A stretch of 64,000 bases of DNA. It comes from Flavihumibacter fluminis (GTDB lineage Bacteria; Bacteroidota; Bacteroidia; Chitinophagales; Chitinophagaceae). A program made the translations under genes and the position numbers. The first letter of the stretch is position 1; each line of letters opens with the position of its first letter. The stretch spans positions 1 through 64,000 of the forward strand of contig NZ_JAKEVY010000005.1 in assembly GCF_021491375.1 (NCBI RefSeq), read 5' to 3'. Below the pieces are notes generated by a model. The model saw nothing but the letters and a program-made list of their open reading frames with translations, searched no databases and was not told the origin of the DNA. This document shows, one piece after another, positions 2,059 to 17,557 of this stretch.

Positions 2059-2074
2059 TGTGATTAATATCACA
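2059..2074. promoter_or_regulatory. CRP/FNR-family operator upstream of the cox operon
   Basis: The sequence TGTGATTAATATCACA matches the classical CRP consensus TGTGA-N6-TCACA exactly. The 7-bp arms ATGTGAT and ATCACAT extend one base beyond this box on each side. Its centre lies about 72 bp before the first ATG (2139), and a -10-like TATACAAT is seen at 2101-2108, which would put the site in a class II-like activator position. A CRP-family activator is the natural inference. Which member binds, and which effector it senses, cannot be read from this window. Confidence 0.65.
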
Positions 2075-2138: not shown

Positions 2139-2621
2139 ATGACCTGTCGTCCTAAAGTCAAGGGTTGTAGCCCCTGCCATCAAGTTTCGGTGCCTCCCCC
2201 GGGTAAAAAGAAAGACTTCGGTCTGCTCTCAGGCATTCTGCTGGCAGTTCTTCCCAAATGCCCCTTTTGCTTCGTTGCCTTTTCCAGCACCCTTGTCCTC
2301 TGTGGGAAAGGAGAAACGATTAGCCAGTCTGATACGCACTCCTCCATCCCAACTATTCTCTTTGCTGCTGTCTTTTGCTCACTCGCAATTTTGAGTATCG
2401 CCCTCAGCTACAAAGATTCCCGTACCCGCTATGCCTTGTTGGTGGCTATCGGTGGCACTGCCTGCATCCTTACCAGTGTGCTGCTCGCAGGTGGTGAACC
2501 ACTCTATTATTTCGGTGTGCTCCTGATTATGGGTGCCGTGGCTATCAACATGCGCAGGTTTCGCTTATTGGAGAAAATGAACCATTGGTTTCGCGGTAGA
2601 ATGATGAAAAAAGTTGCCTGA
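2139..2621 (+). CDS. Cys-rich four-helix membrane protein leading the cox operon (MerC-like in layout)
   Basis: A 160-residue protein with a cytosolic-looking Cys-rich N-terminus (C3, then CSPC at residues 10-13) and about four hydrophobic segments. The first segment carries a CPFC motif following LPK. Such CxxC pairs at a membrane helix resemble MerC-type heavy-metal transporters, but I cannot assign it to that family firmly. It is the first gene after the CRP-type site and lies 56 bp before coxM in the same direction, so it is probably the promoter-proximal gene of the operon. A small hairpin (2616-2631) overlaps its stop codon. Because the CO dehydrogenase active site needs copper, handling of Cu(I) is an attractive but untested role. 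Confidence 0.6.
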   Translation: MTCRPKVKGCSPCHQVSVPPPGKKKDFGLLSGILLAVLPKCPFCFVAFSSTLVLCGKGETISQSDTHSSIPTILFAAVFCSLAILSIALSYKDSRTRYALLVAIGGTACILTSVLLAGGEPLYYFGVLLIMGAVAINMRRFRLLEKMNHWFRGRMMKKVA

Positions 2622-2677
2622 TCCGTCAGGCTCCACATAGATTTTGAATCAACATCTAAACAGCTAAACTAAAAGCT

Positions 2678-3550
2678 ATGATCCCGCAGTCATTCCAGTA
2701 TGAATCACCAGGCTCCCTGGCTGAAGCTATCTCCATGCTTCAGCAATATGGAGAGGATGCAAAAATCCTGTCGGGGGGACACAGCCTGATCCCCATGATG
2801 AAACTCCGGTTCGCCACACCCGAGTACCTGATTGATATTAATAACATACCCGGACTTTCCTACATCCGGGAAGAAAACGGCACACTGAAAATCGGTGGCC
2901 TCACCAGGGAAGCGGAACTTGAACATTCCGATCTGCTCAAACAACATTTTCCCATCTTCGCAGATGTTACCAAACTCATTGCCGACCCCCAGGTACGCAA
3001 CATGGGTACCATCGGCGGTAACCTGGCCCACGGTGATGCAGCCAATGACCATCCCGCTGTTATGATGGCCCTTCATGCTACTGTCGTGGCTACCGGCCCC
3101 GAAGGCGAAAGAGAAATTCCCATCGATGAATTCTTCTACGGGTTCTACATGACTGCGCTGCAACACGGTGATATCCTCACCGAAATCAGAATCCCCATGC
3201 CTCCCCCCGGAACCGGTAGCGCCTACCACAAAATGGAAAGAAAAGTGGGCGATTATGCTACCGCTGGTGTGGCTGTTCAAATCACAATTGGAGATAATGG
3301 TGTGGTTACTGCTGCGGGTATTGGGCTCACCAATGTAAATCCTGTTCCGCTGCGTGCTGCACGTTCTGAACAGGCTCTGATCGGTAAGCCGTTAACTGAA
3401 GCAACCATCAATGAAGCAGCTCTGTATGCATCAGAAGATTGCAACCCTTCTTCCGACCTGCGGGGTAGTGAAGAATACAAACGCTCCATCGTGGCCACCC
3501 TCGTCAAGCGGATGATTCACCAGGCTGTCAACCGCGCCAATAATTCATGA
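2678..3550 (+). CDS. coxM: Carbon monoxide dehydrogenase medium (FAD) subunit CoxM
   Basis: The FAD-binding subunit of the (LMS)2 molybdenum CO dehydrogenase. It passes electrons from the 2Fe-2S subunit to the acceptor. The 290-residue length matches the usual 285-290. The flavin-binding motifs are intact: GGHSLIP near residues 33-39 and TIGGNLAHG at about 111-119, within an N-terminal PCMH-type FAD domain. A C-terminal CO dehydrogenase flavoprotein domain follows from about residue 175. The gene starts the M-S-L order typical of form I clusters, with 21 bp to coxS. Alone it could be any xanthine-dehydrogenase-family FAD subunit; the large subunit fixes the assignment. Confidence 0.93.
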   Translation: MIPQSFQYESPGSLAEAISMLQQYGEDAKILSGGHSLIPMMKLRFATPEYLIDINNIPGLSYIREENGTLKIGGLTREAELEHSDLLKQHFPIFADVTKLIADPQVRNMGTIGGNLAHGDAANDHPAVMMALHATVVATGPEGEREIPIDEFFYGFYMTALQHGDILTEIRIPMPPPGTGSAYHKMERKVGDYATAGVAVQITIGDNGVVTAAGIGLTNVNPVPLRAARSEQALIGKPLTEATINEAALYASEDCNPSSDLRGSEEYKRSIVATLVKRMIHQAVNRANNS

Positions 3551-3571
3551 ACCTTCAAAACCTAGTATAGT

Positions 3572-4075
3572 ATGCTTAAAGAAATAACGATTACTGTTAA
3601 CGGTCAGCAACATACGCTGGAAGTGGAACCGCGACTCCTGCTCGTCCACATGATCCGCGAAGTACTGAACCTAACAGGCACGCATATTGGCTGCGATACC
3701 TCCAGCTGTGGCGCCTGTACCATTTTACTCGATGGCAAATCCATAAAATCCTGCACCGTACTTGCTGTTCAGGCCAATGGTAAATCTATTACCACTATTG
3801 AAGGCGTGGCACAGGATAACCAGTTATCTCCCCTGCAGGAAGGCTTCAAAGAGAACCATGGTTTGCATTGCGGCTTCTGTACACCGGGCATGATTCTGCG
3901 CGCTACTGAACTGCTTGCTCAGAATCCCAATCCTACCGAAGAGGAGATTCGCTGGGGTATTGCGGGTAACCTTTGCCGTTGTACCGGCTACAATAATATC
4001 GTGAAAGCCATTCAATACGCGGGCGCCAAAATCCGCGGAGAGGAATTGCCTTCTACCGAACCAGAATTTGTATAA
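3572..4075 (+). CDS. coxS: Carbon monoxide dehydrogenase small (2Fe-2S) subunit CoxS
   Basis: The small iron-sulfur subunit that carries electrons from the molybdenum-copper centre to FAD. At 167 residues it has the standard length. The plant-ferredoxin-like cluster is bound by C41, C46, C49 and C61. The second, helical-domain cluster is bound by C100, C103, C135 and C137, in the CGFC and CRCTGY context. All eight cysteines are present. It lies 21 bp after coxM and 29 bp before coxL. Confidence 0.95.
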
Positions 4076-4104
4076 TATTCAAAACCGATTCAATTAGTTG
4101 CTTT

Positions 4105-6471
4105 ATGATACAATGCAAAACTTCCAAAGAAATCGGCGGTATGGGCCATTCCCTCAAGAGGAAAGAGGATGCCCGCTTCATCCAGGGTAAGGGTCGATAC
4201 GTGGATGATGTTAAACTGCCAGGTATGCTGTATATGGATATCGTTAGAAGTCCCTATGCCTATGCCAAAATCAAAAACATCAATATTGACGAAGCCATGA
4301 AAGTGCCCGGCGTAGTAGCTGTGGTTACCGGCAGAGATCTCGAAAAATACAACCTGCACTGGATGCCTACCCTGATGTCAGACACCCAGATGGTACTACC
4401 TACCGACACGGTAATGTACCAGGCACAGGAAGTAGCTGCGGTGATCGCTACCAGCAAATATGCCGCGCGTGATGGCCGCGAAGCCGTAAGGGTGGAATAT
4501 GAACCCATGAAACCGGTGATCGATCCCTACAAATCACTGGACCCCGATGCTCCTGTTTTACGCACCGACAAAGAGGGCAAGAAAGACAACCATATCTGGA
4601 ACTGGAAAGTGGGCGATAAACAAAAGACAGATGATGTCTTCGCCAAAGCAGAAGTGGTGGTGAAAGAACAGATGCATATCCCGCGTATCCATGTGGCTTC
4701 TATTGAAACCTGTGGCTGTGTGGCCGATTACGATAAGGTGAACAATCACCTCACCATGTACATGACTACCCAGGCGCCCCATGCAATCAGAACAGTAATT
4801 GCCCTGGTAGCCGGACATGTGGGTCTCACCGAAGAAAAGATCCGCGTGATCTCTCCCGATATCGGTGGTGGTTTTGGTGGTAAGGTTCCTGTATATCCGG
4901 GTTATGTAATCGCCATTGCAGTTTCTTTCCTGGTTGGCAAACCCGTAAAGTGGATTGAAGACCGGAGTGAAAACCTGCAGGCGGATTCTTTTGCACGCGA
5001 TTATCATATCACGGCAGAAATGGCCGGTACCAAAGATGGTAAGATCCTGGCCACGCGCTTCAAAGTCCTCGCCGATCATGGTTATACAGATGCGTCTGCC
5101 AACCCCTCTAAATTCCCGACGGGTATGTTCTCCATCGCAACCGGCTCTTATGATTATGATGCCACCTATATGGAATGTGATGCCGTTTATACCAACAAGC
5201 CGCCAGGGGGTGTTGCCTATCGTTGCTCCTTCCGCGTTACCGAAGCTGTGCATGCCATTGAACGCATCACCGATCGCTTTGCTTTGGAAATTGGAAAGGA
5301 TCCTGCAGAACTACGCTTGCAGAACTTCATCAAAAAAGAAGACTTCCCCTGGAAATCTCCCACCGGATGGATCTATGATAGTGGCGATTACCACAAGGGC
5401 CTGCTGAAAGCCATGGATACCGTGGATTATCACCAGCTCCGCGCAGAACAGGCAGAGAAAAGAAAACGTGGTGAACTGATGGGTATTGGTCTCTCTACTT
5501 TTACCGAAGTAGTAGGAGCCGGTCCATCTAAAGACTTTGATATCCTCGGTATCAAAATGTTCGACAGTGCAGAAATTCGGGTACACCCAACCGGTAAAGC
5601 CATTGCACGTTTTGGTACCAAATCACAGGGTCAGGGGCACGAAACTACCTATGCACAAATCATTGCAGAAGAACTCGGCATCCCTGCTGAAAATATCCAG
5701 ATCGAAGAAGGGGATACTGATACCGCTCCTTACGGATTGGGTACCTATGCTTCCCGAAGCACGCCAACTGCTGGTGCTGCTGCGGCTGTGGCTTCCCGTA
5801 AGTTGCGCGACAAGGCCAGGAAGATTGCAGCTTACCTGCTCGAAGTGAGTGAGGATGACCTGGAATGGGAACCCGGTAAGTTCTTTGTAAAGGGCGCACC
5901 TGAGAAGTCGAAGACCATCCAGGAGATTGTGTTTGCTTCTTATACCAACCATCCTCCCGGCATGGAAGCAGGTTTTGAAGCAACCCATTACTACGATCCA
6001 CCAAATCTTACCTTCCCTTCCGGTGCCTATATCTGCGTAGTGGATATTGACAAGGAAACCGGTGCCATTCATGTAAGGCGTTTTGTGGCCATCGACGATT
6101 GCGGTAATATCATCAACCCGATGATTGTACAGGGACAAGTTCACGGTGGTTTAACACAGGGCATTGCTCCTGCGATGTATGAGGAACTGATTTATGATGA
6201 AGCGGGTAATATCCTGAATGGAACCTTTATGGATTACCTGGTGCCAACTGCAGTTGAATCTCCCAAGTGGGAAACCGGTCATACGGTTACTCCTTCACCG
6301 CACCATCCGATTGGAGCTAAGGGTGTGGGTGAATCACCCACCGTTGGTGCACCTCCTGCTATTGCCAATGCGATTGTGGATGCTTTGAGTCCCTATGGTA
6401 TTACCCACCTCGATATTCCAATCACACCTTTCAAAGTGTGGAAGGCATTGAAGGAAAAGGGAGCTATTTAA
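4105..6471 (+). CDS. coxL: Form I aerobic carbon monoxide dehydrogenase large (Mo/Cu) subunit CoxL
   Basis: The catalytic subunit, which oxidises CO with water to CO2, two electrons and two protons at a [CuSMoO2] centre with molybdopterin cytosine dinucleotide. It has 788 residues, against about 800-810 for characterised homologues. The active-site loop reads AYRCSFR with the copper-binding cysteine at C374. This is the form I signature, whereas form II and related hydroxylases carry AYRGAGR. The base-supplying glutamate is E743 in GVGESP. The molybdopterin-contacting GGGFGGK stretch and the QGQGHETTYAQ segment are intact. The C-terminus is complete. Everything visible argues for an active CO-oxidising enzyme rather than a xanthine or nicotine hydroxylase. 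Confidence 0.96.
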   Translation: MIQCKTSKEIGGMGHSLKRKEDARFIQGKGRYVDDVKLPGMLYMDIVRSPYAYAKIKNINIDEAMKVPGVVAVVTGRDLEKYNLHWMPTLMSDTQMVLPTDTVMYQAQEVAAVIATSKYAARDGREAVRVEYEPMKPVIDPYKSLDPDAPVLRTDKEGKKDNHIWNWKVGDKQKTDDVFAKAEVVVKEQMHIPRIHVASIETCGCVADYDKVNNHLTMYMTTQAPHAIRTVIALVAGHVGLTEEKIRVISPDIGGGFGGKVPVYPGYVIAIAVSFLVGKPVKWIEDRSENLQADSFARDYHITAEMAGTKDGKILATRFKVLADHGYTDASANPSKFPTGMFSIATGSYDYDATYMECDAVYTNKPPGGVAYRCSFRVTEAVHAIERITDRFALEIGKDPAELRLQNFIKKEDFPWKSPTGWIYDSGDYHKGLLKAMDTVDYHQLRAEQAEKRKRGELMGIGLSTFTEVVGAGPSKDFDILGIKMFDSAEIRVHPTGKAIARFGTKSQGQGHETTYAQIIAEELGIPAENIQIEEGDTDTAPYGLGTYASRSTPTAGAAAAVASRKLRDKARKIAAYLLEVSEDDLEWEPGKFFVKGAPEKSKTIQEIVFASYTNHPPGMEAGFEATHYYDPPNLTFPSGAYICVVDIDKETGAIHVRRFVAIDDCGNIINPMIVQGQVHGGLTQGIAPAMYEELIYDEAGNILNGTFMDYLVPTAVESPKWETGHTVTPSPHHPIGAKGVGESPTVGAPPAIANAIVDALSPYGITHLDIPITPFKVWKALKEKGAI

Positions 6472-6492
6472 GCTAGACGCGACTAACTACTA

Positions 6493-6521
6493 TAGCCGGG
6501 TCTGCATGCTGGACCCGGCTA
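6493..6521 (+). terminator. Strong intra-operon hairpin between coxL and coxG
   Basis: A perfect 10-bp inverted repeat (6493-6502 TAGCCGGGTC and 6512-6521) with a 9-nt loop lies in the largest gap (78 bp) of the operon. The stem is GC-rich, but only a short, interrupted T stretch follows. It could be a leaky terminator, or a 3' stabiliser that keeps the structural coxMSL message more abundant than the downstream maturation genes. Confidence 0.6.
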
Positions 6522-6549
6522 ATTTCTTAATGATTATAAACAGTTCAAA

Positions 6550-7077
6550 ATGACAACGACGATAACCAAATCATTCCATGTAGATCATCCGGTGGATGCT
6601 GTATGGAATAACCTGACCAATCCCACGCAGGTAGTTACCTGTGTGCCGGGGGCCTCGTTGACAGAGCAAATCGACAACGACAATTACAAGGGGGAAGTGG
6701 AGCTTAAATTCGGTCCGGTTAAGGCCAGGTACGACGGACTGATCACCTTCCTGGAAAGAGATGCAGCCACCAAAAAAATGTCGCTCAAAGGTACCGGTAC
6801 CGACAGCAAGGGAAAAGGTGGCGCGGATATGAAAATGGATGGCCAGCTTTCTGAAAAGGATGGTGGTACTGATGTGAATGTTACCATGGAAGTGAATGTA
6901 ACCGGTATGATGGCACAGTTCGGTTCAAGGCTGATCAATGATGTATCCAACCAGGTATTCGACCAGTTTGTCAACAACTTCAAAAAGCAGTTGGCTGGCG
7001 AGCAGGTGGACAATACACTAAGTGCGGGTTCCATGGTGGGCGGTATGATCAAGGGATTCTTTGGAGGTAAAAAATAA
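6550..7077 (+). CDS. coxG: CO dehydrogenase accessory protein CoxG (SRPBCC fold)
   Basis: A 175-residue CoxG-family protein with the START/SRPBCC hydrophobic-pocket fold over about residues 1-150 (start FHVDHPVDAVWNNL, then the typical CVPGA segment). It ends in a glycine-rich, amphipathic tail (GGMIKGFFGG) likely to touch the membrane. CoxG is associated with membrane attachment of CO dehydrogenase, and recent work on mycobacterial CODH assigns it a role in delivering menaquinone to the enzyme. That would make it the link between CO oxidation and respiration here. It follows coxL after a hairpin-containing gap, and its 3' end overlaps the next frame by 17 bp. Confidence 0.9.
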   Translation: MTTTITKSFHVDHPVDAVWNNLTNPTQVVTCVPGASLTEQIDNDNYKGEVELKFGPVKARYDGLITFLERDAATKKMSLKGTGTDSKGKGGADMKMDGQLSEKDGGTDVNVTMEVNVTGMMAQFGSRLINDVSNQVFDQFVNNFKKQLAGEQVDNTLSAGSMVGGMIKGFFGGKK

Positions 7078-7945
7078 CAATGTGCATACGATCCAATCCC
7101 AACAGGAAATCATTGATGCGCTCGACAGGATGAACTATGTGGCAGCTGATGCATTTGCCACTTCGCTTTTCCTGATGCTGAAACTGCAGAAGCCATTGCT
7201 GCTGGAAGGTCCGCCTGGTGTGGGCAAAACAGAAGTAGCCCATGCCCTGGCTAAGATCCTTGACACCAAACTCATCCGGTTGCAATGTTATGAAGGGCTT
7301 GATATCAATGCGGCGGTATATGAATGGAACTACCAGAAACAGTTACTCGGAATCAAACTCCAGGAAGGCACTGCACTCTCCATCGAAGAGAAGGAGAAAC
7401 ATATCTTCAGTCATGAATACCTGTTAAAGCGCCCCTTACTGGAATCCATAACCGAATTGTACCAATCGCCGGTATTGCTGATTGATGAACTGGACAGATC
7501 GGATGAAGAGTTTGAAGCCTTCCTGCTAGAATTGTTATCCGCTTTTCAGATCAGCATTCCGGAAATGGGAACGATCAAGGCAAAACATAAACCCTATGTG
7601 ATACTTACGTCTAACCGTACCCGTGAGTTAAGTGATGCGCTGAAAAGAAGATGCCTCTATCACTGGATTGATTACCCCGATCTGGCATTGGAAATGCAGA
7701 TCGTACAAAAGCACCTGCCGGGAATAGAAGCCAGTTTATTGGAGCAGGTGGTGAAAACGGTGCAGGGCTTCCGTCAGCAAAAACTGGCGAAAATACCGGG
7801 GGTATCAGAAACGATCGACTGGGCGCAATCCCTGATGACATTGGGTTACCGGGAACTGAATCAACAGGCATTTGATCAGACCCTGGGTGCCATCCTGAAA
7901 TCGACAGATGATATCAACCAGGTAAAAGCGGAAGGATTGGTATGA
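7061..7945 (+). CDS. coxD: CoxD, MoxR-type AAA+ ATPase for active-site maturation
   Basis: An AAA+ ATPase of the MoxR class. In characterised CO oxidisers CoxD is needed to build the sulfurated copper-molybdenum centre, acting as a chaperone-like unfoldase with CoxE. Walker A is GPPGVGKT at about residues 50-57, Walker B is LLIDELD, and a sensor 1 asparagine lies in LTSN. About 294 residues is the normal size. The start is uncertain: TTG at 7061 (overlapping coxG by 17 bp) and GTG at 7082 both precede the first conserved residues. It ends in an ATGA overlap with coxE, so the two are translationally coupled, as expected for a MoxR/VWA pair. Confidence 0.9.
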   Translation: MEVKNNNVHTIQSQQEIIDALDRMNYVAADAFATSLFLMLKLQKPLLLEGPPGVGKTEVAHALAKILDTKLIRLQCYEGLDINAAVYEWNYQKQLLGIKLQEGTALSIEEKEKHIFSHEYLLKRPLLESITELYQSPVLLIDELDRSDEEFEAFLLELLSAFQISIPEMGTIKAKHKPYVILTSNRTRELSDALKRRCLYHWIDYPDLALEMQIVQKHLPGIEASLLEQVVKTVQGFRQQKLAKIPGVSETIDWAQSLMTLGYRELNQQAFDQTLGAILKSTDDINQVKAEGLV

Positions 7946-9081
7946 AACAACAGGCCTATCAAACAACCAGCCTAACCGAAGGCATTGTGGCATTTGTGCA
8001 TTTTGCCCGAAGCCATGGATTGAATGTAGGGCTGCCGGAAACAAAGGATGCCTTGCTGGCTGCCGACCTGGGATTATTAACCAATCGGGAGCTATTCAAG
8101 GATGCACTGAAAACGATCTTTTGCAAATCGCCGGAAGAAGAGAAGGTATTTGAAAAAATCTTCCTGTTGTATTGGGATACCAATCCCATTGATCTGCAGG
8201 AAAGAAAGGGCAAGGCTACGGTGCAGGGACTCGTAGAAAAAAAGGCCAATGCTACCCTCGTGATGCTGGGGAGAGGAGATAAGCAGGAACAGGAAACCGA
8301 TGCGAAAAATGTGAGTGGGGCCAATGAAAAAGAACGCCTGAAGAAAACAGACCTGGCGCACGTGAAAGAAACAGATGCAGCGCAATTGGAAGCAATCGCA
8401 CGAAAACTCTTTAGGGAGATGGCCGTTAGGATGAGGAGACGCATGAAAAGTTCCACCAGGAAGGGAAGGATCAACCTGCGGAGAACCATCCGGCACAGCA
8501 TCAGTTATGGAGGTGAGCCGATGGAACTTTTCCGGAAAGCGCAAAAGCCCAAAAAACAACGACTGATTGTATTGCTGGATGTAAGCGGCTCGATGGATAA
8601 ATACAGTTTCTACCTGCTGCGTTTCATTTGCGCCCTGAAAGAACAGTTCAGGCAACTGGAAGCCTTCCTGTTCAGTACTCAATTGCTACGGGTGACAAAA
8701 GCATTGCAATTGAACCGGATTGACCAGATCCTGCAAACCGTATCCGACCAGGCTGAACATTGGTCGGGTGGCACGAGAATCGGTAGTTGCCTGGCTAAGT
8801 TCAACGAACGTTATGGCAAGTTGCTGCTGAATGGTTCACCGATCGTACTGATTCTAAGTGATGGACTGGATACCGGCACTCCGGAAGAACTGCAAAAGGA
8901 ATTGAAATACATGAAGGGGAAGGCCAGAAAATTAATCTGGCTGAATCCCTTAAAAGGAATGAAAGGATATGCACCGATCGCAAAAGGCATGAGCGCCGCG
9001 CTGCCTGCTATTGATGAATTCAGATCGGCGCATAACCTGGAAAGTTTGCTGGAACTCGAAAATATTTTACAAGATGCTTGA
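7942..9081 (+). CDS. coxE: CoxE, von Willebrand factor A domain maturation protein
   Basis: A 379-residue VWA-containing CoxE family protein. The metal-ion-dependent adhesion motif DxSxS is intact as D213-V-S215-G-S217. An N-terminal helical domain and a highly charged linker (about residues 115-190, rich in Lys/Arg/Glu) precede it. CoxE works with the AAA+ ATPase CoxD in maturation of CO dehydrogenase, probably in copper insertion. Start codon ATG 7942 overlaps the coxD stop. The 3' end overlaps the start of the next gene by 8 bp. Confidence 0.9.
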   Translation: MKQQAYQTTSLTEGIVAFVHFARSHGLNVGLPETKDALLAADLGLLTNRELFKDALKTIFCKSPEEEKVFEKIFLLYWDTNPIDLQERKGKATVQGLVEKKANATLVMLGRGDKQEQETDAKNVSGANEKERLKKTDLAHVKETDAAQLEAIARKLFREMAVRMRRRMKSSTRKGRINLRRTIRHSISYGGEPMELFRKAQKPKKQRLIVLLDVSGSMDKYSFYLLRFICALKEQFRQLEAFLFSTQLLRVTKALQLNRIDQILQTVSDQAEHWSGGTRIGSCLAKFNERYGKLLLNGSPIVLILSDGLDTGTPEELQKELKYMKGKARKLIWLNPLKGMKGYAPIAKGMSAALPAIDEFRSAHNLESLLELENILQDA

Positions 9082-10057
9082 GGTTTTTTTAGAAAAAGGA
9101 CAGGAACTGAGGAAAAAGAATGAACCCTTCGCCATCGCACTGGTGGTGAGGAGGGAAGCACCCAGCAGTGGCAAAGCAGGTGATAAGGCCATAATCAATA
9201 AATTTGGTGAGATCATTGGTTGGGTAGGAGGAGGTTGTGTGCGCGCCATTATCATCAAGGAAGCAGAAGATGCGATGAAAACAGGCAGGGCCCGGCTCGT
9301 GCGAATTGGGAAAGCTCTCAACCAATCTCAACAGGAAGGCGTTATGGAATATAAAATGACTTGTCAGAGTGAAGGACTGGTGGAAGTGTTCATCGAACCC
9401 GTACTGCCGCCACCCCACCTGGTCGTGATGGGAAAAACAGCCATCGCCAAGGCATTGGTAAAGCTGGCCAAGGCAAGCGGATTTCGGGTAACGGCAGTAG
9501 CGCCTGATGTCAAGCCCGATACCTTTGACAAAGTGGATGAGCTGATCACGCAATACAGTCTCAAACAGGTGAATACCACACCTGCAAGCAGTATTGTGGT
9601 GGCCACCCAGGGAGATAATGATGAGATCGCTTTGCAGGAAGCAATTGGTAAAACATCCTCTTATCTTGGGTTTGTGTCGAGCAGGAAAAAAGGTGATAAG
9701 CTGATGGACTACCTAAAGGATGCCGGTGTGGATCCTTCCCGGGTGGCAACTATCAAATCGCCAGCAGGAATTGATATCAATGCCAAGAGTCCGGAAGAAG
9801 TGGCCATCAGTATTCTGGCAGAGGTCATCCAGGTGAAGAGTCAGGTAGCAACGGGGGCTGCCTTCACGATGTTTGATACCACAAGAGAAGAAGCAGGTAA
9901 GCCCAAGTTTTATATCAATCCTGTTTGCGGGGTTCCGGTGGATGTGAATAGTCCCAAACACGTAATTGACTACAAAGGAGAAAAAGTGTATTTCTGCTGT
10001 GATGGATGCAAAGTGAAGTTTGAGCAGAACCCTGAAAAATATATGGAGAAGGCATGA
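9074..10057 (+). CDS. coxF: CoxF-like XdhC-family protein with a C-terminal YHS metal-binding domain
   Basis: A 327-residue XdhC/CoxF protein. XdhC relatives bind molybdenum cofactor, help its sulfuration and deliver it to the apo-enzyme. The N-terminal XdhC_CoxI motif GGGC has its cysteine at about residue 55, and a Rossmann-like XdhC_C domain covers about residues 125-240. A YHS/TRASH-like domain fills the last 48 residues, with C285, C308, C309 and C312 (PVCG and FCCDGC). YHS domains occur in copper-handling proteins, which suits the Mo-S-Cu site. The start ATG 9074 is preferred because it begins the conserved helix; an in-frame upstream ATG at 9011 would lie deep inside coxE. It overlaps coxI by ATGA. 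Confidence 0.85.
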   Translation: MLEVFLEKGQELRKKNEPFAIALVVRREAPSSGKAGDKAIINKFGEIIGWVGGGCVRAIIIKEAEDAMKTGRARLVRIGKALNQSQQEGVMEYKMTCQSEGLVEVFIEPVLPPPHLVVMGKTAIAKALVKLAKASGFRVTAVAPDVKPDTFDKVDELITQYSLKQVNTTPASSIVVATQGDNDEIALQEAIGKTSSYLGFVSSRKKGDKLMDYLKDAGVDPSRVATIKSPAGIDINAKSPEEVAISILAEVIQVKSQVATGAAFTMFDTTREEAGKPKFYINPVCGVPVDVNSPKHVIDYKGEKVYFCCDGCKVKFEQNPEKYMEKA

Positions 10058-11211
10058 AGGAAATAAAAGCGATCATACAGGCATACGAGCAGGCTGAACA
10101 GGAAGGCAAGAAATCGGCCCTGGTGACCGTGGTGCATTTGGAGGGATCCTCTTACAGAAGACCGGGCGCAAGAATGTTGGTGACGGATGAAGGAGAGATG
10201 ACGGGTGCAATCAGTGGTGGTTGCCTGGAAGGTGATGCATTGCGGAAAGCCTTATCGGTATTGAATCAACAGCAATCCAGATTGGTTACCTATGATACCA
10301 GTGATGAAGAAGATGCTTCCATTGGTGTGCAGTTGGGATGCGCGGGTGTGATCCAGGTACTGATGGAACCAATTGATCATGCAAGGGCCAATCATCCGGT
10401 TGAATTGTTGAAAAAGGTAGTTGGTAAACGCCAGCCCTATGTACTGGTGACCTTGTTCTCCCTGGAAGATAAAAAAGGCGCACAGCCAGGTACCTGTTTA
10501 TTGGTAGAAGCGGATGGCACGGTGAGTGGTGATATGACAGACGCGGCATTGAAGCAGGTAGTGTTGGAAGATGTTACTACCTGTTTCGATCAGCAACAAT
10601 CCGCTTTTCGAAATTACCGGTCTGCCGATTTTGCGATAACAGCTTTCATTGAATACATCGAACCTGCCCTGGCACTCATGATTATTGGTGCCGGCAATGA
10701 TGTGATTCCCCTGGTGGAAATGGCCAATACACTGGGCTGGGAACCTTCTGTCATAGATGGAAGGCCTACACACGCAAAGCGGGAACGATTTGCAAGTGCC
10801 TGCCAGATCCTGGTCAGCAAACCGGAAAAAGTATTGGAGCAATTGGTGATTGATGAGCAGACCGTGTTTGTGCTGATGACCCATAATTACAATTACGACC
10901 TGGCAATGCTGAAGGCATTGGTGCATACTCCGGTTTCTTATATCGGCCTGCTGGGACCAAAGAAAAAACTCGACCGCATGCTGGGAGATTTGAAAGAGGA
11001 GGGTATCACTCTAACCGAAGAACAACTATCAAGGATTTATGGTCCGGTTGGTTTGGAGATTGGTGCTGAAACAGCAGAAGAGATTGCCCTTTCCATTTTG
11101 TCGGAAATCCGGGCAGTTAAAACAGGAACCGGAGGCAAATCCCTTCGTACCAAGTTAGATACCATCCATTCCAGGGAAGCTACCCGGATCAGTGAAAAAC
11201 ATATCCAGTGA
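10054..11211 (+). CDS. coxI: CoxI, second XdhC/CoxI-family cofactor maturation protein
   Basis: A 385-residue protein with the full XdhC_CoxI domain first (GSSYRRPGARM and the GGCLEG cysteine motif) and an NAD(P)-like Rossmann domain later (MIIGAGNDVIPL, about residues 207-218). This is the CoxI/XdhC architecture that stabilises and sulfurates molybdopterin cytosine dinucleotide before insertion. It is a distant paralogue of the preceding coxF-like gene but lacks the YHS domain. Start and stop codons overlap both neighbours (ATGA and GTGA), so it is part of one translational unit. Confidence 0.88.
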   Translation: MKEIKAIIQAYEQAEQEGKKSALVTVVHLEGSSYRRPGARMLVTDEGEMTGAISGGCLEGDALRKALSVLNQQQSRLVTYDTSDEEDASIGVQLGCAGVIQVLMEPIDHARANHPVELLKKVVGKRQPYVLVTLFSLEDKKGAQPGTCLLVEADGTVSGDMTDAALKQVVLEDVTTCFDQQQSAFRNYRSADFAITAFIEYIEPALALMIIGAGNDVIPLVEMANTLGWEPSVIDGRPTHAKRERFASACQILVSKPEKVLEQLVIDEQTVFVLMTHNYNYDLAMLKALVHTPVSYIGLLGPKKKLDRMLGDLKEEGITLTEEQLSRIYGPVGLEIGAETAEEIALSILSEIRAVKTGTGGKSLRTKLDTIHSREATRISEKHIQ

Positions 11212-11822
11212 AACCGGACAACCACCATACCCATGACTGCGCGATTGTTATCCTTGCCGCTGGTCAATCTAGCAGACTCGGGGAAGCCAAGCAATTGTTA
11301 CCTTACAAAGGGAAATCCTTATTGGTGCAGGCAGTGGATACCGCAGTAGCAACAGGTCTGCGGCCGGTTGTAGTGGTGCTGGGCGCCAGGAATGAAATGA
11401 TGAAGCAGGAGTTAATAGACAAAGAAGTGGTGATCGTGCTGAATGAGCAATGGGAAGAAGGCATGGGCTCTTCTCTGCGATGCGGCTTAAAAAAAGCACA
11501 GCAGGTGGCTCCTGAAACGGAGGGTGTGATCTTCATGGTATGTGACCAACCTCATGTGAGTCCTGAATTGTTGATGCAATTGATCGAAACAAGTTCAGCA
11601 ACTTCGAAGCCCATTGTGGCAAGTAGTTATGGAGAGTTATCCGGTACGCCGGCTTTATTCAGCAGCAAACTATTTCCCGCCTTGCTGGAGATCAAAGGAG
11701 ATACCGGCGCCAGGAAACTGATCAAACAATATGCGGAGGAAGTAGCTACGATACCCTTCCCGGAAGGGAGCATTGATATCGATACCCCATCCGATTACCA
11801 AACCTTACTGAAACAAGATTAA
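11208..11822 (+). CDS. mocA: Molybdopterin nucleotidyltransferase (MocA/MobA-like)
   Basis: A 204-residue NTP-transferase. The signature LAAGQSSRLGEAKQLLPYKG (residues about 17-36) is the nucleotide-binding loop of the MobA/MocA family, and a VCDQPH segment follows near residue 112. In this setting it most likely attaches CMP to Mo-molybdopterin to give the cytosine dinucleotide form that CO dehydrogenases use, hence MocA rather than the GTP enzyme MobA. The nucleotide choice is inferred from context, not from a specificity residue. Translation starts at GTG 11208, overlapping the coxI stop, and the next gene follows immediately. Confidence 0.85.
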   Translation: MKPDNHHTHDCAIVILAAGQSSRLGEAKQLLPYKGKSLLVQAVDTAVATGLRPVVVVLGARNEMMKQELIDKEVVIVLNEQWEEGMGSSLRCGLKKAQQVAPETEGVIFMVCDQPHVSPELLMQLIETSSATSKPIVASSYGELSGTPALFSSKLFPALLEIKGDTGARKLIKQYAEEVATIPFPEGSIDIDTPSDYQTLLKQD

Positions 11823-12812
11823 ATGGAAGGCCAACTGATAGATACTTATAACCGCGTTCACAATTACCTGAGGATATCGTTGACGGACAACTGCAATTTC
11901 AGGTGCTTTTACTGCATGCCGGAAGAGGACTATGATTTTGCACCAGCCAGTAAACTGATGCAGGCGGATGAGATTTATAAGATCGCGAAACTTTTTGTTG
12001 AGCAGGGCGTGAATAAAATCAGGCTGACAGGTGGTGAGCCCCTGGTAAGAAAAGATGCGGCAAAAATTATACAACTGCTGGCGCAATTACCGGTGAACCT
12101 TACCATTACTACCAATGGTAGCAGGATTCATGAATTCATTGAGCTGCTGAAAGAGAACAGAATTCGTTCTTTGAATATCAGCCTGGATACACTGGACCGG
12201 GATAAGTTCCTCCTGATGACCCGCAGGGATCAGTTTCAGCGGGTTTATGATAATATTCATTTGTTGCTGCGGGAAGGCTTTCATGTGAAAGTGAACATGG
12301 TGGTGATGAAGGGGATGAACGAAGCAGAGATTCTTGATTTTATTGAGTGGACGAAATTGGATCCGGTGCATGTACGTTTTATTGAATTCATGCCCTTTAG
12401 TGGCAACAGATGGACCAGCAATAAAGTGGTTACCTGGCAGGAAATGCTGGAACTCGCGGGAACCAGGTATGATATCCTTCCCCTGGCGGCTGAGCCTAAT
12501 GATACGGCTAAAAAATACCAGGTGCCGGGGCATAAAGGCACTTTTGCGGTAATCAGCACTATGAGTAATAATTTCTGTGGCACCTGCAATCGCATAAGGC
12601 TAACTGCTGATGGCAAGATGAAGAACTGTCTGTTTTCTGCGTCAGAAACTGACCTGTTGCAACCATTGCGGATGGGAGAAGATATCCTGCCGCTGATTCA
12701 GCAAACCATTAGGGCTAAACACAAAGAGTTAGGCGGACAATTCACTACCGATTTTGAAAACATAGAAGCAACGACCATCCATAACCGAAGTATGATCACC
12801 ATTGGAGGATGA
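11823..12812 (+). CDS. moaA: GTP 3',8-cyclase MoaA
   Basis: A radical SAM enzyme converting GTP to 3',8-cyclo-dihydro-GTP, the first step of molybdopterin synthesis. The N-terminal SAM cluster ligands are C24, C28 and C31 (CNFRCFYC). The C-terminal substrate-binding cluster ligands are C252, C255 and C269 (CGTC...NC). Length 329 is standard. The MoaA C-terminus usually ends in a GG-like tail needed for activity with partner peptides, and this one ends TIGG. The gene begins directly after mocA and ends in an ATGA overlap with a TonB-dependent receptor. Confidence 0.95.
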   Translation: MEGQLIDTYNRVHNYLRISLTDNCNFRCFYCMPEEDYDFAPASKLMQADEIYKIAKLFVEQGVNKIRLTGGEPLVRKDAAKIIQLLAQLPVNLTITTNGSRIHEFIELLKENRIRSLNISLDTLDRDKFLLMTRRDQFQRVYDNIHLLLREGFHVKVNMVVMKGMNEAEILDFIEWTKLDPVHVRFIEFMPFSGNRWTSNKVVTWQEMLELAGTRYDILPLAAEPNDTAKKYQVPGHKGTFAVISTMSNNFCGTCNRIRLTADGKMKNCLFSASETDLLQPLRMGEDILPLIQQTIRAKHKELGGQFTTDFENIEATTIHNRSMITIGG

Positions 12813-15382
12813 AGTTATATTTAACCATTCTGCTTCTTGCATATTCTTTTCTTGCAATTGCACAAGAAAGGGATACTACAGTTCTTTCCGGTAAGGATAG
12901 CATTCGGGAATCGGTATTGGGTGAAGTGATTGTTACGGCTTCGCGTTTGCCCGAAAAATTGTTGCTATCGCCGGTGACGGTGGAGAAAGTAAGCCGCTCT
13001 TTTTTCCTGACCAATTCATCCCCCTCTTTTTTTGATGCGCTGGACCAGGTGAAAGGTGTGCAGACCATTACGCCTAGCATGGGATTCAAAATCATCAACA
13101 CACGTGGATTTGCCAATACCACCAATGTGCGATTTGCTCAACTGGTAGATGGAATGGATATTCAATCGCCGCATATTGGAAGTCCGGTTGGAAATGTATT
13201 AGGTCCGGGTGACCTGGATATTGAACGTGTAGAAATCATACCCGGCGTAGCCTCCACGATGTATGGCATGAACAGCATCAACGGGCTGGCTAATTTTTAC
13301 AGTCGCGATCCCTTTCTATCAGAAGGACTCAGCATTCGCCAGCATACTGCCCTCACGCATTTGAATAATACATCCAGTGCGCCACGAATCTTTTCTGAAA
13401 CCCAGCTTCGTTGGGTGAAAAAACTGAATGCTCAATGGGCGGTGAAATTCAACCTGGGGTATATGCATGGTTATGATTGGGTGGCCGATAACTATAATGA
13501 TTTAAGTCCGCAAGCCAATGCCAGTACAGGATTGATAGCTAATACGAATCCGGCACTGAACCCCGTGAATAGTTATGGCAATGAAGGACCGAACCGGCGT
13601 ACGCTTAACCTGGGCGGAAGAGCTTACCAGGTGGCGAGAACCGGTTATCGGGAAATCGATGTAACGGATTATACCCTGCAGAATATTAAAGGAGATGCGG
13701 GATTATTTTATAAAACCAAAAAAGGGCATCGGTTTTCTTATACTTTCCGATATGCATTCCTGAATAATATTTACCAGCGCGCGAATCGGTTCCGGTTGGA
13801 GGATTATGCGCTGTACCAGCATGGAATTAATTATCAATCGCCCTCCATACAGGCAAAGCTGTATTACAATGGAGAAAATACCGGTGATTCGTATAACCTA
13901 CGCTCCATGGCAGAAAATCTGGATCGGGCGGGACTAAGCGATAATGAATGGTTTGCACTCTATAACCAGGGTTATACAACTGCATTACAGAGTGGTCAGT
14001 CGGTAGAAGCGGCGCATCAACAAGCACGGCAGTTGGCAGACCGGGATCGGTTGCAACCAGGAACAGCCGGGTTTAATGAAACTATTTCGCGACTGCAACA
14101 AATCAACAACTGGGATAGCGGTGCGGCATTAAAGGTGCGGGCAGGATTCATCCATGGAGAAGTGCAGTTTAATCTCACAGAGCAATGGTTGAAAAAATGG
14201 AAAGAAAAAGCTGGACTGGAGCTCGTGGCTGGTATAGATCATCGCAGCTACCTGGTGCAGCCGGATGGCAATTATTTTATCAATCCGGAAGCAGGCAAAG
14301 CAGGTCGCACTATCCGCTATGGCAGAACCGGCGCCTTTGTATCTGCATACAAACAATTGTTGCAGGATAAACTACGGTTAGGGGTAGCTGTGAGATCCGA
14401 TAAGAATGATTATTTTAAGGTAAAATGGAATCCAAGAGTAACGGCTGTTTACAGTATCAATAGCAACCAGAGCCTGCGCCTTTCTTTCACCAGCAGTTAT
14501 CGCTTCCCCATTGTATTTGAAGCTTATTCCAATGTGAACAGTGGAGGCGTGAAAAGAGTGGGAGGCTTGCCCGTGATGTCGAATGGGATTTTTGAGAATG
14601 CCTGGTTGCAGACCTCCATCGCTACTTACCAGGCAGCTATCTTAAGAGACCAGAACCAGGGCGGACTCAGTAGAAATGAAGCCATCGAAAAGAACAAAGG
14701 GTTGTTGCAGAAAAATCCCTATTCCTATCTCGAGCCGGAGCAGGTAAGATCTGTAGAAATTGGTTACAGGGGCGTGTTTTTAAGTGGCAGGTTGTATGTG
14801 GATGGAGGTGCTTATTTCAATCGCTACAATTCTTTCATCGCGCAGGCGAATATGAATATTCCAAGAACCACAAATCCGGATTCCATGGCTTATTACCTGG
14901 CGGATAACCGGTTGCAGGAGCAGTACCGGATGTGGACCAATTCCTCCACTACGATTGACAATATTGGCTTCCATGCAGGAGGCAGTTTTCGACTAGTAAA
15001 GGATTATGTGATTAATGCAAATACGAGCTTCCAGCAACTGTTGAAAACCAGTAACGAGGATGGACTGGAAGATGGATTTAATACACCGGAATGGATGGTG
15101 AATGCGGGCATTGCGAACCAGAATATTTTTCATGGCATAGGGGCGGGACTGAATCTGCGCTGGCAGAGCCGGTATTATTGGGAATCCTTCCTGGTGAATG
15201 GCGATGTGCCATCCATCACAACTTTGGACGCAAATATTAGTTATCAGTTTACAAAAATGCCACTTCAGCTTAAATTGGGAGGCAATAACCTGTTCAATCG
15301 ATATTATTATTCCATACTCGGTGGTCCCTCTATTGGCGGTTATTATTACCTGACATTGACCTGGGGACTTCTAAAAAAATAA
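12809..15382 (+). CDS. TonB-dependent outer-membrane receptor inside the cox/Moco operon
   Basis: An 857-residue TonB-dependent receptor with a signal peptide (MKLYLTILLLAYSFLAIAQ). It has a plug domain from about residue 40 to 165 (including the VERVEIIPG-like segment and a YGMNSINGLANF region) and a large beta-barrel ending in an aromatic strand (YYYLTLTWGLLKK). It lacks the N-terminal CarboxypepD_reg repeat found in SusC proteins and has no SusD partner, so it is probably a metal or metallophore importer, not a glycan porin. Its start overlaps moaA and it is followed by moeA 5 bp later, which ties it to molybdenum-cofactor supply. Molybdate, chelated Mo or copper are candidate cargoes; the sequence does not decide. 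Confidence 0.88.
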   Translation: MKLYLTILLLAYSFLAIAQERDTTVLSGKDSIRESVLGEVIVTASRLPEKLLLSPVTVEKVSRSFFLTNSSPSFFDALDQVKGVQTITPSMGFKIINTRGFANTTNVRFAQLVDGMDIQSPHIGSPVGNVLGPGDLDIERVEIIPGVASTMYGMNSINGLANFYSRDPFLSEGLSIRQHTALTHLNNTSSAPRIFSETQLRWVKKLNAQWAVKFNLGYMHGYDWVADNYNDLSPQANASTGLIANTNPALNPVNSYGNEGPNRRTLNLGGRAYQVARTGYREIDVTDYTLQNIKGDAGLFYKTKKGHRFSYTFRYAFLNNIYQRANRFRLEDYALYQHGINYQSPSIQAKLYYNGENTGDSYNLRSMAENLDRAGLSDNEWFALYNQGYTTALQSGQSVEAAHQQARQLADRDRLQPGTAGFNETISRLQQINNWDSGAALKVRAGFIHGEVQFNLTEQWLKKWKEKAGLELVAGIDHRSYLVQPDGNYFINPEAGKAGRTIRYGRTGAFVSAYKQLLQDKLRLGVAVRSDKNDYFKVKWNPRVTAVYSINSNQSLRLSFTSSYRFPIVFEAYSNVNSGGVKRVGGLPVMSNGIFENAWLQTSIATYQAAILRDQNQGGLSRNEAIEKNKGLLQKNPYSYLEPEQVRSVEIGYRGVFLSGRLYVDGGAYFNRYNSFIAQANMNIPRTTNPDSMAYYLADNRLQEQYRMWTNSSTTIDNIGFHAGGSFRLVKDYVINANTSFQQLLKTSNEDGLEDGFNTPEWMVNAGIANQNIFHGIGAGLNLRWQSRYYWESFLVNGDVPSITTLDANISYQFTKMPLQLKLGGNNLFNRYYYSILGGPSIGGYYYLTLTWGLLKK

Positions 15383-15387
15383 ACACT

Positions 15388-16572
15388 ATGATCAGCTCTG
15401 CAGCAGCAAAAGCAATAATAAAAGAACAATGTGAAGCCTTGCCACCGGTGGTGCTTCCCATCAAGCAGGCAATGGGTACTGTGCTGGCGGAAGATATCTA
15501 TGCTCCTGTTGATATTCCCTGTTATCCGCAATCTAGCATGGATGGCTATGCATTTTCCTATGCAGGATGGAAGCCCGGAGAACCCCTGGATTTGTATGGT
15601 GAGATGGCTGCGGGAAGTAATCAAACCATTGAACTAATCCCCGGCAAGGCAGTCCGCATTTTTACAGGAGCAGCCGTACCACCGGGAGCAGATACGGTGG
15701 TGATACAAGAAAAGATCCGCCTGGAAGGCGATGAATTGCATATTGAAGATCCTGAACTGACAGCAGGCGATAATGTGCGTCCTATAGGATCTGAGATCAG
15801 CAAAAATGCATTGGCATTGGAAAAAGGCACCCTCTTAACAGCACCGGGAATTGGATTCCTGGCAGGGATTGGCCTGGCGGAAGTGAAAGTATATCCCAAA
15901 CCTCGGGTAGCCATCATCGTTACCGGCAATGAATTGCAGGAACCGGGAAAGCCACTGGAATACGGGCAGGTGTATGAATCCAACTCCGCCTCTCTGACAG
16001 CCGCGCTGGAAGCCCTGTTGATCCGGGATATTCAACTCTTTCGGGTGGCGGATAATTTGAACTCATTAAGTGCTACCCTGGCAACTGCGCTGGAACAGTC
16101 CGACCTGGTATTGTTGACAGGAGGAATTAGTGTAGGGGATTATGATTTCACGCTGAAGGCGACACTGGAATGTGGCATCGAAACCATCTTTCATAAGATC
16201 AAACAGAAACCGGGCAAGCCCATCCTGTTTGGCAAACAGGGACAAAAACCTGTATTCGGATTACCAGGCAATCCGGCTTCGGTTATGACCTGCTTTTATG
16301 AATACGTATTGGTTGCGATAGGCGAAATGCAACATCGTAACCTTACCCTGCGCAAGCGCAACGCCATTCTTGCGAATACGGTGAAAAAACCTGCTGGTCC
16401 GACTCATTATCTTAAAGGTTATGCAGATGGCGAAAAAGTAATGTCATTGGAAGGACAGGAATCCTATAAACTGAATTCCTTTGCGCGGGCCAATTGCCTG
16501 ATCATGCTACCGGAAGAATGCACGCAAGCGGGTCCGGGTGATGAAGTAGAAATCCATATCTTACCCTTTTAA
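15388..16572 (+). CDS. moeA: Molybdopterin molybdenumtransferase MoeA
   Basis: A 394-residue MoeA that inserts molybdate into adenylylated molybdopterin. It has the N-terminal CYPQSSMDGYA block with the conserved SSMDGYA at about residues 50-56, the GSE segment, the TGGISVGDYD motif of the MogA-like domain, and the KPGKP/FGLPGNPAS segment near the end of that domain. The order and length are those of the family. It lies 5 bp after the TonB receptor and 8 bp before the permease gene. Confidence 0.93.
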   Translation: MISSAAAKAIIKEQCEALPPVVLPIKQAMGTVLAEDIYAPVDIPCYPQSSMDGYAFSYAGWKPGEPLDLYGEMAAGSNQTIELIPGKAVRIFTGAAVPPGADTVVIQEKIRLEGDELHIEDPELTAGDNVRPIGSEISKNALALEKGTLLTAPGIGFLAGIGLAEVKVYPKPRVAIIVTGNELQEPGKPLEYGQVYESNSASLTAALEALLIRDIQLFRVADNLNSLSATLATALEQSDLVLLTGGISVGDYDFTLKATLECGIETIFHKIKQKPGKPILFGKQGQKPVFGLPGNPASVMTCFYEYVLVAIGEMQHRNLTLRKRNAILANTVKKPAGPTHYLKGYADGEKVMSLEGQESYKLNSFARANCLIMLPEECTQAGPGDEVEIHILPF

Positions 16573-16580
16573 TCGCGCGC

Positions 16581-17318
16581 ATGGATGCTACGCTGATTTT
16601 TTATATCATCTTGTTTGTCGTTGCCTTTTTGTATGCATCGGTAGGGCATGGTGGTGCCAGTGGTTACCTGGCCCTGATGGCCCTGTACGGATTTGCACCC
16701 GAAGTGATGAAACCCACGGCGCTGCTGCTGAATCTCTTTGTATCCCTGACTTCTTATATCCAGTTTTACAGGGGCGGGCATTTCAAGTGGAAGATCTTTT
16801 TACCATTGGCATTGGCCTCCATACCTATGGCATTTGTAGGCGGACTGCTAACTATCGATGCAACGATTTATAAGAAGATATTAGGGGCGCTGTTATTGTT
16901 GCCGATCCTGCGCTTCTTTTTATTAAAAGATAGCAAGCAGGCGGGGTCGGTAGAGTCGAATGTGTGGGTGTCGGTTTTCATTGGAGCCGGTATAGGATTT
17001 TTATCCGGACTCATAGGAATTGGTGGAGGCATCATCCTTTCGCCGATTTTGTTGTTATTAAATTGGACCAATCAAAAGCAAACCGCGGCCATCAGTGCCT
17101 TGTTTATATTCGTGAATTCCCTGAGTGGCTTATTCGGGCAATTGACCAAGGGCATTCATTTCAGTACAGACATGTTGTGGATGGTGGTAATCGCTTTTGG
17201 TGGAGGATTGTTAGGGGCCTGGTTCGGATCCTTGAAATTCAGGCAGGAAGTGCTGAAATTCACACTGGCAACCGTGCTTACGATGGCGGCCTTTAAACTA
17301 TTGTTTACCTCAGCGTAG
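16581..17318 (+). CDS. TauE/SafE-family membrane permease
   Basis: A 245-residue integral membrane protein with about eight hydrophobic segments and two glycine-rich half-repeats (YASVGHGGASGY near the start and GLIGIGGGIILSP in the middle). This is the TauE/SafE (DUF81) pattern. Members move sulfite, sulfoacetate and other small anions. Its position between moeA and moaD suggests it either imports an anion used in cofactor synthesis (molybdate or a sulfur source) or exports sulfite from sulfuration chemistry. Substrate is inference only. It is spaced 5 bp from moaD. Confidence 0.85.
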   Translation: MDATLIFYIILFVVAFLYASVGHGGASGYLALMALYGFAPEVMKPTALLLNLFVSLTSYIQFYRGGHFKWKIFLPLALASIPMAFVGGLLTIDATIYKKILGALLLLPILRFFLLKDSKQAGSVESNVWVSVFIGAGIGFLSGLIGIGGGIILSPILLLLNWTNQKQTAAISALFIFVNSLSGLFGQLTKGIHFSTDMLWMVVIAFGGGLLGAWFGSLKFRQEVLKFTLATVLTMAAFKLLFTSA

Positions 17319-17323
17319 AAAAA

Positions 17324-17557
17324 ATGGAACTACAGATTACGATATTCGGGCAATTGACAGATATAACAGGGAGCAGCAACATTCGGATACCTGCAGTCAG
17401 CAATACCGATGAACTATTAGCAGCATTGAAGCAACAATACCCTGCATTGGGAACCGCCAAATTTGTAGTGGCAGTGAATAAAAAAATCATCCAGGGAAAT
17501 ACAGCATTAGCAGCAAACAGCAGCATTGCTTTATTACCACCCTTTTCCGGAGGATAA
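17324..17557 (+). CDS. moaD: Molybdopterin synthase small subunit MoaD
   Basis: A 77-residue ubiquitin-like protein ending in PPFSGG, the C-terminal diglycine that is adenylylated by MoeB and converted to a thiocarboxylate. It donates sulfur in molybdopterin synthesis together with MoaE. Length and the GG end are diagnostic in this context. Its stop overlaps the moeB start by one base. Confidence 0.93.
   Translation: MELQITIFGQLTDITGSSNIRIPAVSNTDELLAALKQQYPALGTAKFVVAVNKKIIQGNTALAANSSIALLPPFSGG

Follow-up and report, generated by a model that had tools for sequence, protein, structure and literature searches.

The stretch analysed here, called the window in the following, comprises 64,000 nucleotides of Flavihumibacter fluminis (assembly GCF_021491375.1, contig NZ_JAKEVY010000005.1, positions 1 to 64,000) and contains a gene cluster for an aerobic carbon monoxide (CO) dehydrogenase. 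We read it as an intact form I cluster with a dedicated Cu(I) line, in which copper would pass from a MerC-like membrane protein via CoxF to the Mo-S-Cu site of the enzyme, and we assign this reading a probability of about 0.65. The genes and their active-site residues were observed directly, as were the fusion of CoxF to a YHS domain, the swap of this domain for an HMA domain in other clusters and the co-occurrence of the MerC-like and coxF genes with coxL. A Bacteroidota host for form I coxL was already known. The fusion and the swap were not found in the open-access literature searched and are, by that measure, the novel part.

Structural genes of the CO dehydrogenase

The enzyme is encoded by three genes, which the first-pass annotation had described as intact and in the canonical M-S-L order. 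Both points are borne out by the open reading frames (ORFs).

2678..3550, + strand: coxM, flavin adenine dinucleotide (FAD) subunit, 290 residues (ORF, model matches, motifs)
3572..4075, + strand: coxS, subunit with two [2Fe-2S] clusters, 167 residues (ORF, models, aligned cysteines)
4105..6471, + strand: coxL, form I Mo-Cu subunit, 788 residues (AYRCSFR, C374, E743, models, tree)

Judged by their sequence, the three genes encode a form I (Mo-Cu) aerobic CO dehydrogenase in full and without disruption. The loop AYRCSFR occupies CoxL residues 371-377 with its cysteine at 374, and the glutamate of GVGES is residue 743. CoxL was aligned to CoxL of Afipia (Oligotropha) carboxidovorans OM5, with 469 of 788 residues identical. 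In this alignment C388, E763 and Q240 of OM5 correspond to C374, E743 and Q223 of the window, in agreement with the copper-ligand cysteine and the catalytic glutamate named in the annotation. For the smaller subunits, full length and a complete set of FAD and cluster motifs had been claimed. This was true for the length of both and for CoxS, which keeps 8/8 reference cysteines in the alignment to OM5. CoxM has GGHS and TIGGN, with a serine in place of the alanine preceding GGHS, and the claim does not hold for the first letter of AGGHS; in other respects its FAD motifs are complete.

The form I identity was tested by models and by phylogeny. CoxL scored 1247.8 bits with TIGR02416 (aerobic CO dehydrogenase large subunit; cut-off 991.15), and relatives with solved structures were found. 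A CoxL tree had been proposed in the annotation, with a position outside form I as the outcome that would speak against it. The tree came from a quick search and used 70 of the 114 distinct large-subunit sequences: Bacteroidota were subsampled, and both truncated rows and distant xanthine dehydrogenase rows were excluded. Several long branches were flagged. All 59 rows with AYxCSFR fell on one side of a branch with a Shimodaira-Hasegawa-like approximate likelihood ratio support of 100, opposite the 11 rows with AYRGAGR. The window CoxL was placed inside form I, with Flavihumibacter sequences as its nearest neighbours. A role as a Mo hydroxylase with a substrate other than CO is hardly credible. 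Glyceraldehyde dehydrogenase models are the best matches of CoxM and CoxS, though with scores under the model cut-offs, and this assignment was rejected for that reason. CoxL, on the other hand, scores above the cut-off of the CO dehydrogenase model, has retained the loop as well as C374, E743 and Q223, and nests in form I. Four further Mo hydroxylase matches were found in the genome, none of which has an AYxCSFR loop.

CoxF and its C-terminal YHS or HMA domain

CoxF is the XdhC-family protein that follows coxE in the form I cluster. For its start, ATG at 9074 was preferred to TTG at 9011.

9074..10057, + strand: coxF, XdhC-family body with C-terminal YHS domain, putative Cu(I) donor (Pfam XdhC_C 94.5, XdhC_CoxI 63.2, YHS 48.7 bits)
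9914..10048, + strand: YHS domain of CoxF, residues 281-325, with C285, C308, C309 and C312

The YHS score passes the Pfam cut-off of 30.3. The four YHS cysteines are invariant in 48 aligned rows, which were chosen as YHS-bearing, and M95 and C97 are invariant in the body. The structure model shows an XdhC body and has a mean predicted local distance difference test score (pLDDT) of 86.4. Residues 261-280 are of low confidence (pLDDT 53-59) and the YHS unit at 281-320 is confident (82-87). A whole-chain fold search with CoxF did not find YHS: the top six matches were XdhC bodies and the other listed rows were Rossmann-type folds and the like.

We then took a census of XdhC-family reading frames of at least 240 residues, from which near-duplicates and four ORFs at locus edges were dropped. 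Only residues 1-265 were used to recognise the CoxF type, which kept the YHS or HMA domain out of the assignment. The census gave 83 CoxF-type ORFs that were distinct and complete. YHS is present in 70 (in one as a double copy), HMA takes the same place in six, and seven have neither domain. In contrast, neither domain was found in any of the 78 other XdhC-family ORFs. The YHS profile was built from 77 segments of the same loci; Pfam served as an independent check on nine proteins and placed YHS above its cut-off in seven (window, Thermomicrobium roseum, Natronorubrum, SAR324, Calditrichia with two copies, G719 and Paraburkholderia). HMA was first called by its cysteine motif. All four proteins scanned with Pfam were above the HMA cut-off (Rhodothermus, G300, G351, G464), and L179 and L180 rest on the cysteine motif. 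The HMA replacement carries MSCAHC.

The distribution of coxF was compared with that of coxL in 298 genomes of the order. With a threshold of E <= 1e-200, coxL was found in 13 genomes. CoxF (E <= 1e-25) was found in the same 13, and every match extended at least to query residue 323, that is, into YHS. In 198 genomes of the phylum a loose threshold gave some CoxF match in 74. Body and YHS together were spanned only by the window's own protein; five further body matches end at residue 255-258 and carry HMA, and matches confined to YHS fall elsewhere. Since a match in this search could end at the linker, 24 XdhC loci (L183-L206) were read directly, and neither YHS nor HMA was present in any. Plasmids were represented by the best 60 of 266 records matching the window CoxF. 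Six of these matches extend into YHS, and all six records also encode a CoxL of at least 57% identity. Of the six CoxL loops, five were read: four are AYRCSFR, and that of Caballeronia sp. SBC1 (L221) is AYRCSFM. This last record has a form I-like CoxL in which the cysteine and the glutamate are kept, with CoxF-YHS downstream.

Two further loci deserve mention. The CoxL of G464 (L207) is 88% like that of the window and nests among Bacteroidia, but its CoxF shows only 43% likeness and ends in an HMA domain like that of Rhodothermus; this is possibly a mosaic cluster. In G688 (L212), a genome sampled from the phylum to which the Pyrinomonadaceae genome belongs, CoxF is without YHS and ends in a CC-bearing tail.

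Comparison with known systems places the fusion in context. The pHCG3 locus of OM5 shares with the window the coxM-S-L order, the loop, the copper-ligand cysteine, the glutamate and coxD, E, F and G. Unlike the window, it has a CoxF of 280 residues without YHS, and a MerC-like gene is absent from the 26 kb that were fetched. Copper chaperones of the HMA class are of the CopZ/Atx1 type. The CoxF tail of the Rhodothermus group is likewise an HMA with MxCxxC, except that it is fused to CoxF, and the window CoxF has YHS instead. The papers cited here and below are represented by excerpts. In Oligotropha, Cu insertion requires coxE and coxF: enzyme from the coxE and coxF mutants contained 0.00 and 0.043 Cu per enzyme compared to 1.47-1.62 in the wild type, whereas the contents of Mo, FAD and Fe did not change (PMC4240915). 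In the same paper, Pelzmann et al. 2014 proposed CoxF as the copper donor with a putative M107-C motif. Their CoxF is like that of the window in family, place and presumed job, and the proposed motif corresponds to MxC here. In contrast to the CoxF described in those excerpts, the window protein has a separate fused C-terminal metal-binding domain and lacks the phytase motif RHGQRQS. In T. roseum, the XdhC-family protein downstream of coxL has the same combination of XdhC body and YHS (58.2 bits), whereas the accessory genes are partly elsewhere (PMC6776052) and no MerC-like gene was found in the fetched stretch. T. roseum oxidises CO to sub-atmospheric levels (PMC6776052). Thus, a cluster with such a CoxF works.

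The MerC-like protein and copper supply

The first gene of the run that includes coxMSL encodes a small membrane protein.

2139..2621, + strand: MerC-like small membrane protein with PKCPFC motif, putative soft-metal (Cu(I)) importer (Pfam MerC 25.5 bits)

It resembles the mercury importers MerC and MerT as a small helical membrane protein with CxxC, and we take the analogy to mercury transport from general knowledge. Unlike them, it is tied to coxL in the genomes sampled. P39, K40, C41 and C44 of the PKCxxC motif do not vary across the 43 aligned rows, nor does C55, a third cysteine. In the order sample, matches at E of about 1e-10 or better occur in 11 of 298 genomes, all of them among the 13 with coxL; in one of the 11 (G182) a stop lies inside the match. 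The position of the gene was assessed in 62 named Bacteroidota loci, that is, 69 minus two without coxM, three with a coxM fragment and two with less than 500 bases upstream. The MerC-like gene lies upstream of coxM in 56 of the 62, adjacent or, where read, one gene away. These 56 include L080 and L082, which were counted by coordinates and in which the coxM frame stays open further upstream. With a tighter distance limit the number was 35/69. The counts from the order sample and from the named loci overlap, as several genomes are common to both. In nine loci (L032, L038, L043, L045, L050, L051, L056, L063 and L067) a conserved gene that looks by eye like a beta-propeller lies between the MerC-like gene and coxM, and L032 also has a MoaD/ThiS-like stretch there.

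Based on these observations, the following mechanism is proposed. CoxMSL would use a Mo-S-Cu-S(Cys374) centre to oxidise CO, and the electrons would reach the quinone pool through CoxG, a role given for CoxG in PMC13240472, which itself cites others. The active site would be finished after folding, with CoxD sulfurating Mo and CoxF, together with CoxE, inserting Cu(I). CoxF may act as a built-in metallochaperone, in which a flexible tether bears the cysteine-rich YHS domain (HMA in Rhodothermus-like genomes). This domain would hold Cu(I) and hand it to the sulfurated apo-enzyme, and the MerC-like protein would move Cu(I) across the inner membrane. We infer that YHS/HMA binds Cu(I) and acts as donor from the way the domain is distributed: in this sample it occurs only in the XdhC protein that belongs to the one copper-bearing enzyme of the family, and in one group it is swapped for HMA. 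The simplest account of both is that it carries copper. Copper import by the MerC-like protein is the weakest step, a guess by analogy and association that we would rate as somewhat short of even. In the open-access literature searched, no bench test of a role for the YHS/HMA domain of CoxF or for the MerC-like protein was found, and YHS and CO dehydrogenase appear together only as separate table rows in the excerpts covered.

A number of findings weigh against this copper line, and they concern both of its proteins. The seven CoxF-type ORFs of 83 without YHS or HMA include that of the experimental model organism. They come from two alphaproteobacteria, Nonomuraea, a Myxococcota-labelled metagenome-assembled genome (MAG), G688 and two second copies in SAR324-type loci, and the latter two adjoin a first copy bearing YHS. 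The alphaproteobacterial CoxF proteins, Oligotropha's included, are without YHS. In two of the nine proteins scanned, YHS is just under the Pfam cut-off (Deinococcus 29.1, Pyrinomonadaceae 26.4 bits), and the Deinococcus copy is without the first cysteine. The 83 ORFs were collected for their similarity to the window, which tilts them toward Bacteroidota; they include one actinobacterial and two alphaproteobacterial CoxF, and the Chloroflexota type is T. roseum only. Among 19 plasmid records with a CoxL of at least 57% identity, 13 (12 alphaproteobacteria and Nonomuraea) have no YHS-reaching CoxF among the matches listed. Together with the domain-less Oligotropha CoxF, this indicates that the domain is not strictly needed for Cu insertion, and as Oligotropha does without it, it cannot be indispensable everywhere. 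The same data favour an ordinary form I cluster, in which YHS or HMA would be a structural or zinc-holding appendage, or a copper or redox sensor, with no hand-over of copper. M95 and C97 of the CoxF body itself, which coincide in position with the copper motif suggested in the excerpts of PMC4240915, point in this direction as well. However, the swap of YHS for HMA with its MSCAHC at the same place is hard to explain on structural grounds alone, and the 78 other XdhC proteins have neither domain. We therefore regard an appendage or sensor as rather unlikely.

The case for the MerC-like protein is more evenly balanced. Its score of 25.5 bits does not pass the Pfam cut-off of 27.6, its model is of middling confidence (pLDDT 77), and Foldseek with this model gave no match at E <= 0.001. 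It was not found in two coxL genomes of the order (G041 and G210), in 6/62 Bacteroidota loci, in the fetched regions of G464, G300, G304, G343 and G351 or in those of six plasmid references (L123-L128). Among the non-Bacteroidota loci checked, it occurs only in a Thermoanaerobaculia-labelled MAG whose CoxL groups with Bacteroidota. The label of this MAG (L084) looks wrong, as the cluster is of Bacteroidota type. With MerC under its cut-off as the only family lead, and with most but not all Bacteroidota clusters having the gene, which among the loci checked is nearly confined to that phylum, it stands close to an even chance that the gene is a hitch-hiker unrelated to copper supply, encoding mercury or soft-metal resistance, efflux or a thiol-redox function. 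A resistance gene would be expected elsewhere too, whereas the window's genome has a single copy, and in the order sample the 285 genomes without coxL gave only three homologues, all weak (E 3e-5 or worse). Taking the copper line from MerC-like protein to CoxF beyond this genome, we suggest tentatively that form I clusters outside the alphaproteobacteria commonly have a CoxF whose Cu(I)-chaperone domain is exchangeable, being YHS, double YHS or HMA, and that in Bacteroidota a MerC-type copper importer encoded in the same operon may be added.

Cluster layout, host and significance

From 2139 to 17318 the genes share one strand and either overlap slightly or are separated by short gaps, in the order MerC-like gene, coxM, S, L, G, D, E, F, xdhC, mocA-like, moaA, TonB receptor, moeA and TauE-type permease. 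Further genes (moeB-like, moaE-like and moaCB) follow up to 20033. Thus, the structural genes are accompanied by genes for maturation and for much of cofactor synthesis.

2059..2074, strand not assigned: TGTGA-N6-TCACA palindrome, like a CRP/FNR-type operator, 65 bp before the MerC-like start codon
6550..7077, + strand: coxG (Pfam COXG 87.7 bits)
7061..7945, + strand: coxD, MoxR-type AAA+ ATPase (nearest model MadB ATPase, under cut-off; neighbours as in known cox clusters)
7942..9081, + strand: coxE, von Willebrand factor A (VWA) domain protein (nearest model MadC VWA, under cut-off)
10054..11211, + strand: second XdhC/CoxI-family protein, without YHS (Pfam, YHS profile)
11208..11822, + strand: mocA-like molybdenum cofactor nucleotidyltransferase (NTP_transf_3 above cut-off; MocA model 156.8, under its cut-off of 186.45)
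11823..12812, + strand: moaA, molybdenum cofactor synthesis (CxxxCxxC radical SAM motif by eye; name from the translation only)
12809..15382, + strand: TonB-dependent receptor (Pfam barrel 76.3, plug 45.8 bits)
15388..16572, + strand: moeA (Pfam)
16581..17318, + strand: TauE/SafE-family permease (Pfam)
17557..18666, + strand: ThiF-rhodanese protein, moeB-like (Pfam)
18669..19112, + strand: ORF which, from its translation, we take to be moaE-like (ATG 18669 preferred to TTG 18549)
19122..20033, + strand: moaC fused to a molybdopterin-binding (moaB/mog-like) domain (Pfam)

The TonB receptor gene is situated between moaA and moeA in translational coupling, and uptake of molybdate or of a copper chelate is possible. 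It is found at the same place in L019, L021, L022, L029 and L091 and not in L020, L023, L024 and L040, and it had no PDB match at 1e-5. A copper-related role was left unused, as there is no PDB relative and the receptor is absent between moaA and moeA in several relatives. The palindrome is the sole exact match within the window, and a CRP-family CO or energy sensor could act there. It is exact in L019 (at -75, with a changed spacer) and L091 (at -80), and no match with at most one mismatch was found in the remaining 54 of 56 loci. An operator common to Bacteroidota clusters was therefore rejected, the motif being confined to the window and two close relatives. The roughly 1.2 kb upstream of the operon (904-2138) have no listed ORF of 80 residues and many GAACGGT-like repeats by eye. 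Right after moaCB, at 20138-21183, helix-turn-helix and Fic-type proteins (named by eye) with lower G+C possibly represent a mobile insertion.

The Bacteroidota host is well supported, as the same cluster occurs in Flavihumibacter relatives. The isolate Flavihumibacter cheonanensis WS16 has a CoxL identical to that of the window, and the identity is 94% in F. stibioxidans and 93% in F. profundi. A same-genus genome (G279) had no coxL match; the trait is thus patchy. Locus L019 groups with the window genus, and its label Flavipsychrobacter sp. looks wrong. In the phylum sample 9/395 genomes match coxL, eight of them with form I and one (G646) with only an AYRGAGR enzyme. The chance that the contig is contamination from another phylum is close to negligible: the distance from the contig start to coxM is under 2.7 kb, but the same cluster with 99-100% CoxL is present in a same-genus genome and in WS16, the contamination value of the genome is 0.89 and the closest CoxL neighbours in the tree are Flavihumibacter. 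The first-pass annotation had treated a Bacteroidota host as little reported, and this novelty was lost. Form I coxL was listed for Bacteroidota among other phyla by Cordero et al. 2019 (PMC6794299), the phylum is named several times in a 2026 ocean survey (PMC13203968), and a further report of 2026 includes it (PMC13240472). No paper on Flavihumibacter together with carbon monoxide was found in the open-access literature searched.

The annotation had also concluded that the organism can scavenge CO for energy. Four haem-copper oxidase matches, two of them near full length, were found in the genome. Unlike OM5, the genome gave no match to a RuBisCO large subunit. With coxD, E, F and G, these findings fit a carboxydovore in which CO supplements heterotrophy, and by its gene content the organism may plausibly live in this way.

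CO dehydrogenase removes atmospheric CO, and the question addressed here is how copper reaches its Mo-S-Cu site. In the excerpts at hand, PMC4240915 ends by naming protein-level work and missing factors as future challenges. A fused, exchangeable soft-metal domain on CoxF, found from Bacteroidota to a haloarchaeon, makes the question testable on one small protein, and the domain offers a sequence mark of copper-enzyme maturation. If the copper line proposed here is correct, the MerC-like gene would encode a dedicated copper importer; to our knowledge, such importers are known in few bacteria. Oligotropha would then stem from a lineage in which CoxF dropped the chaperone domain or never acquired it, and this would account for the difficulty of seeing the copper donor site in that well-studied organism.

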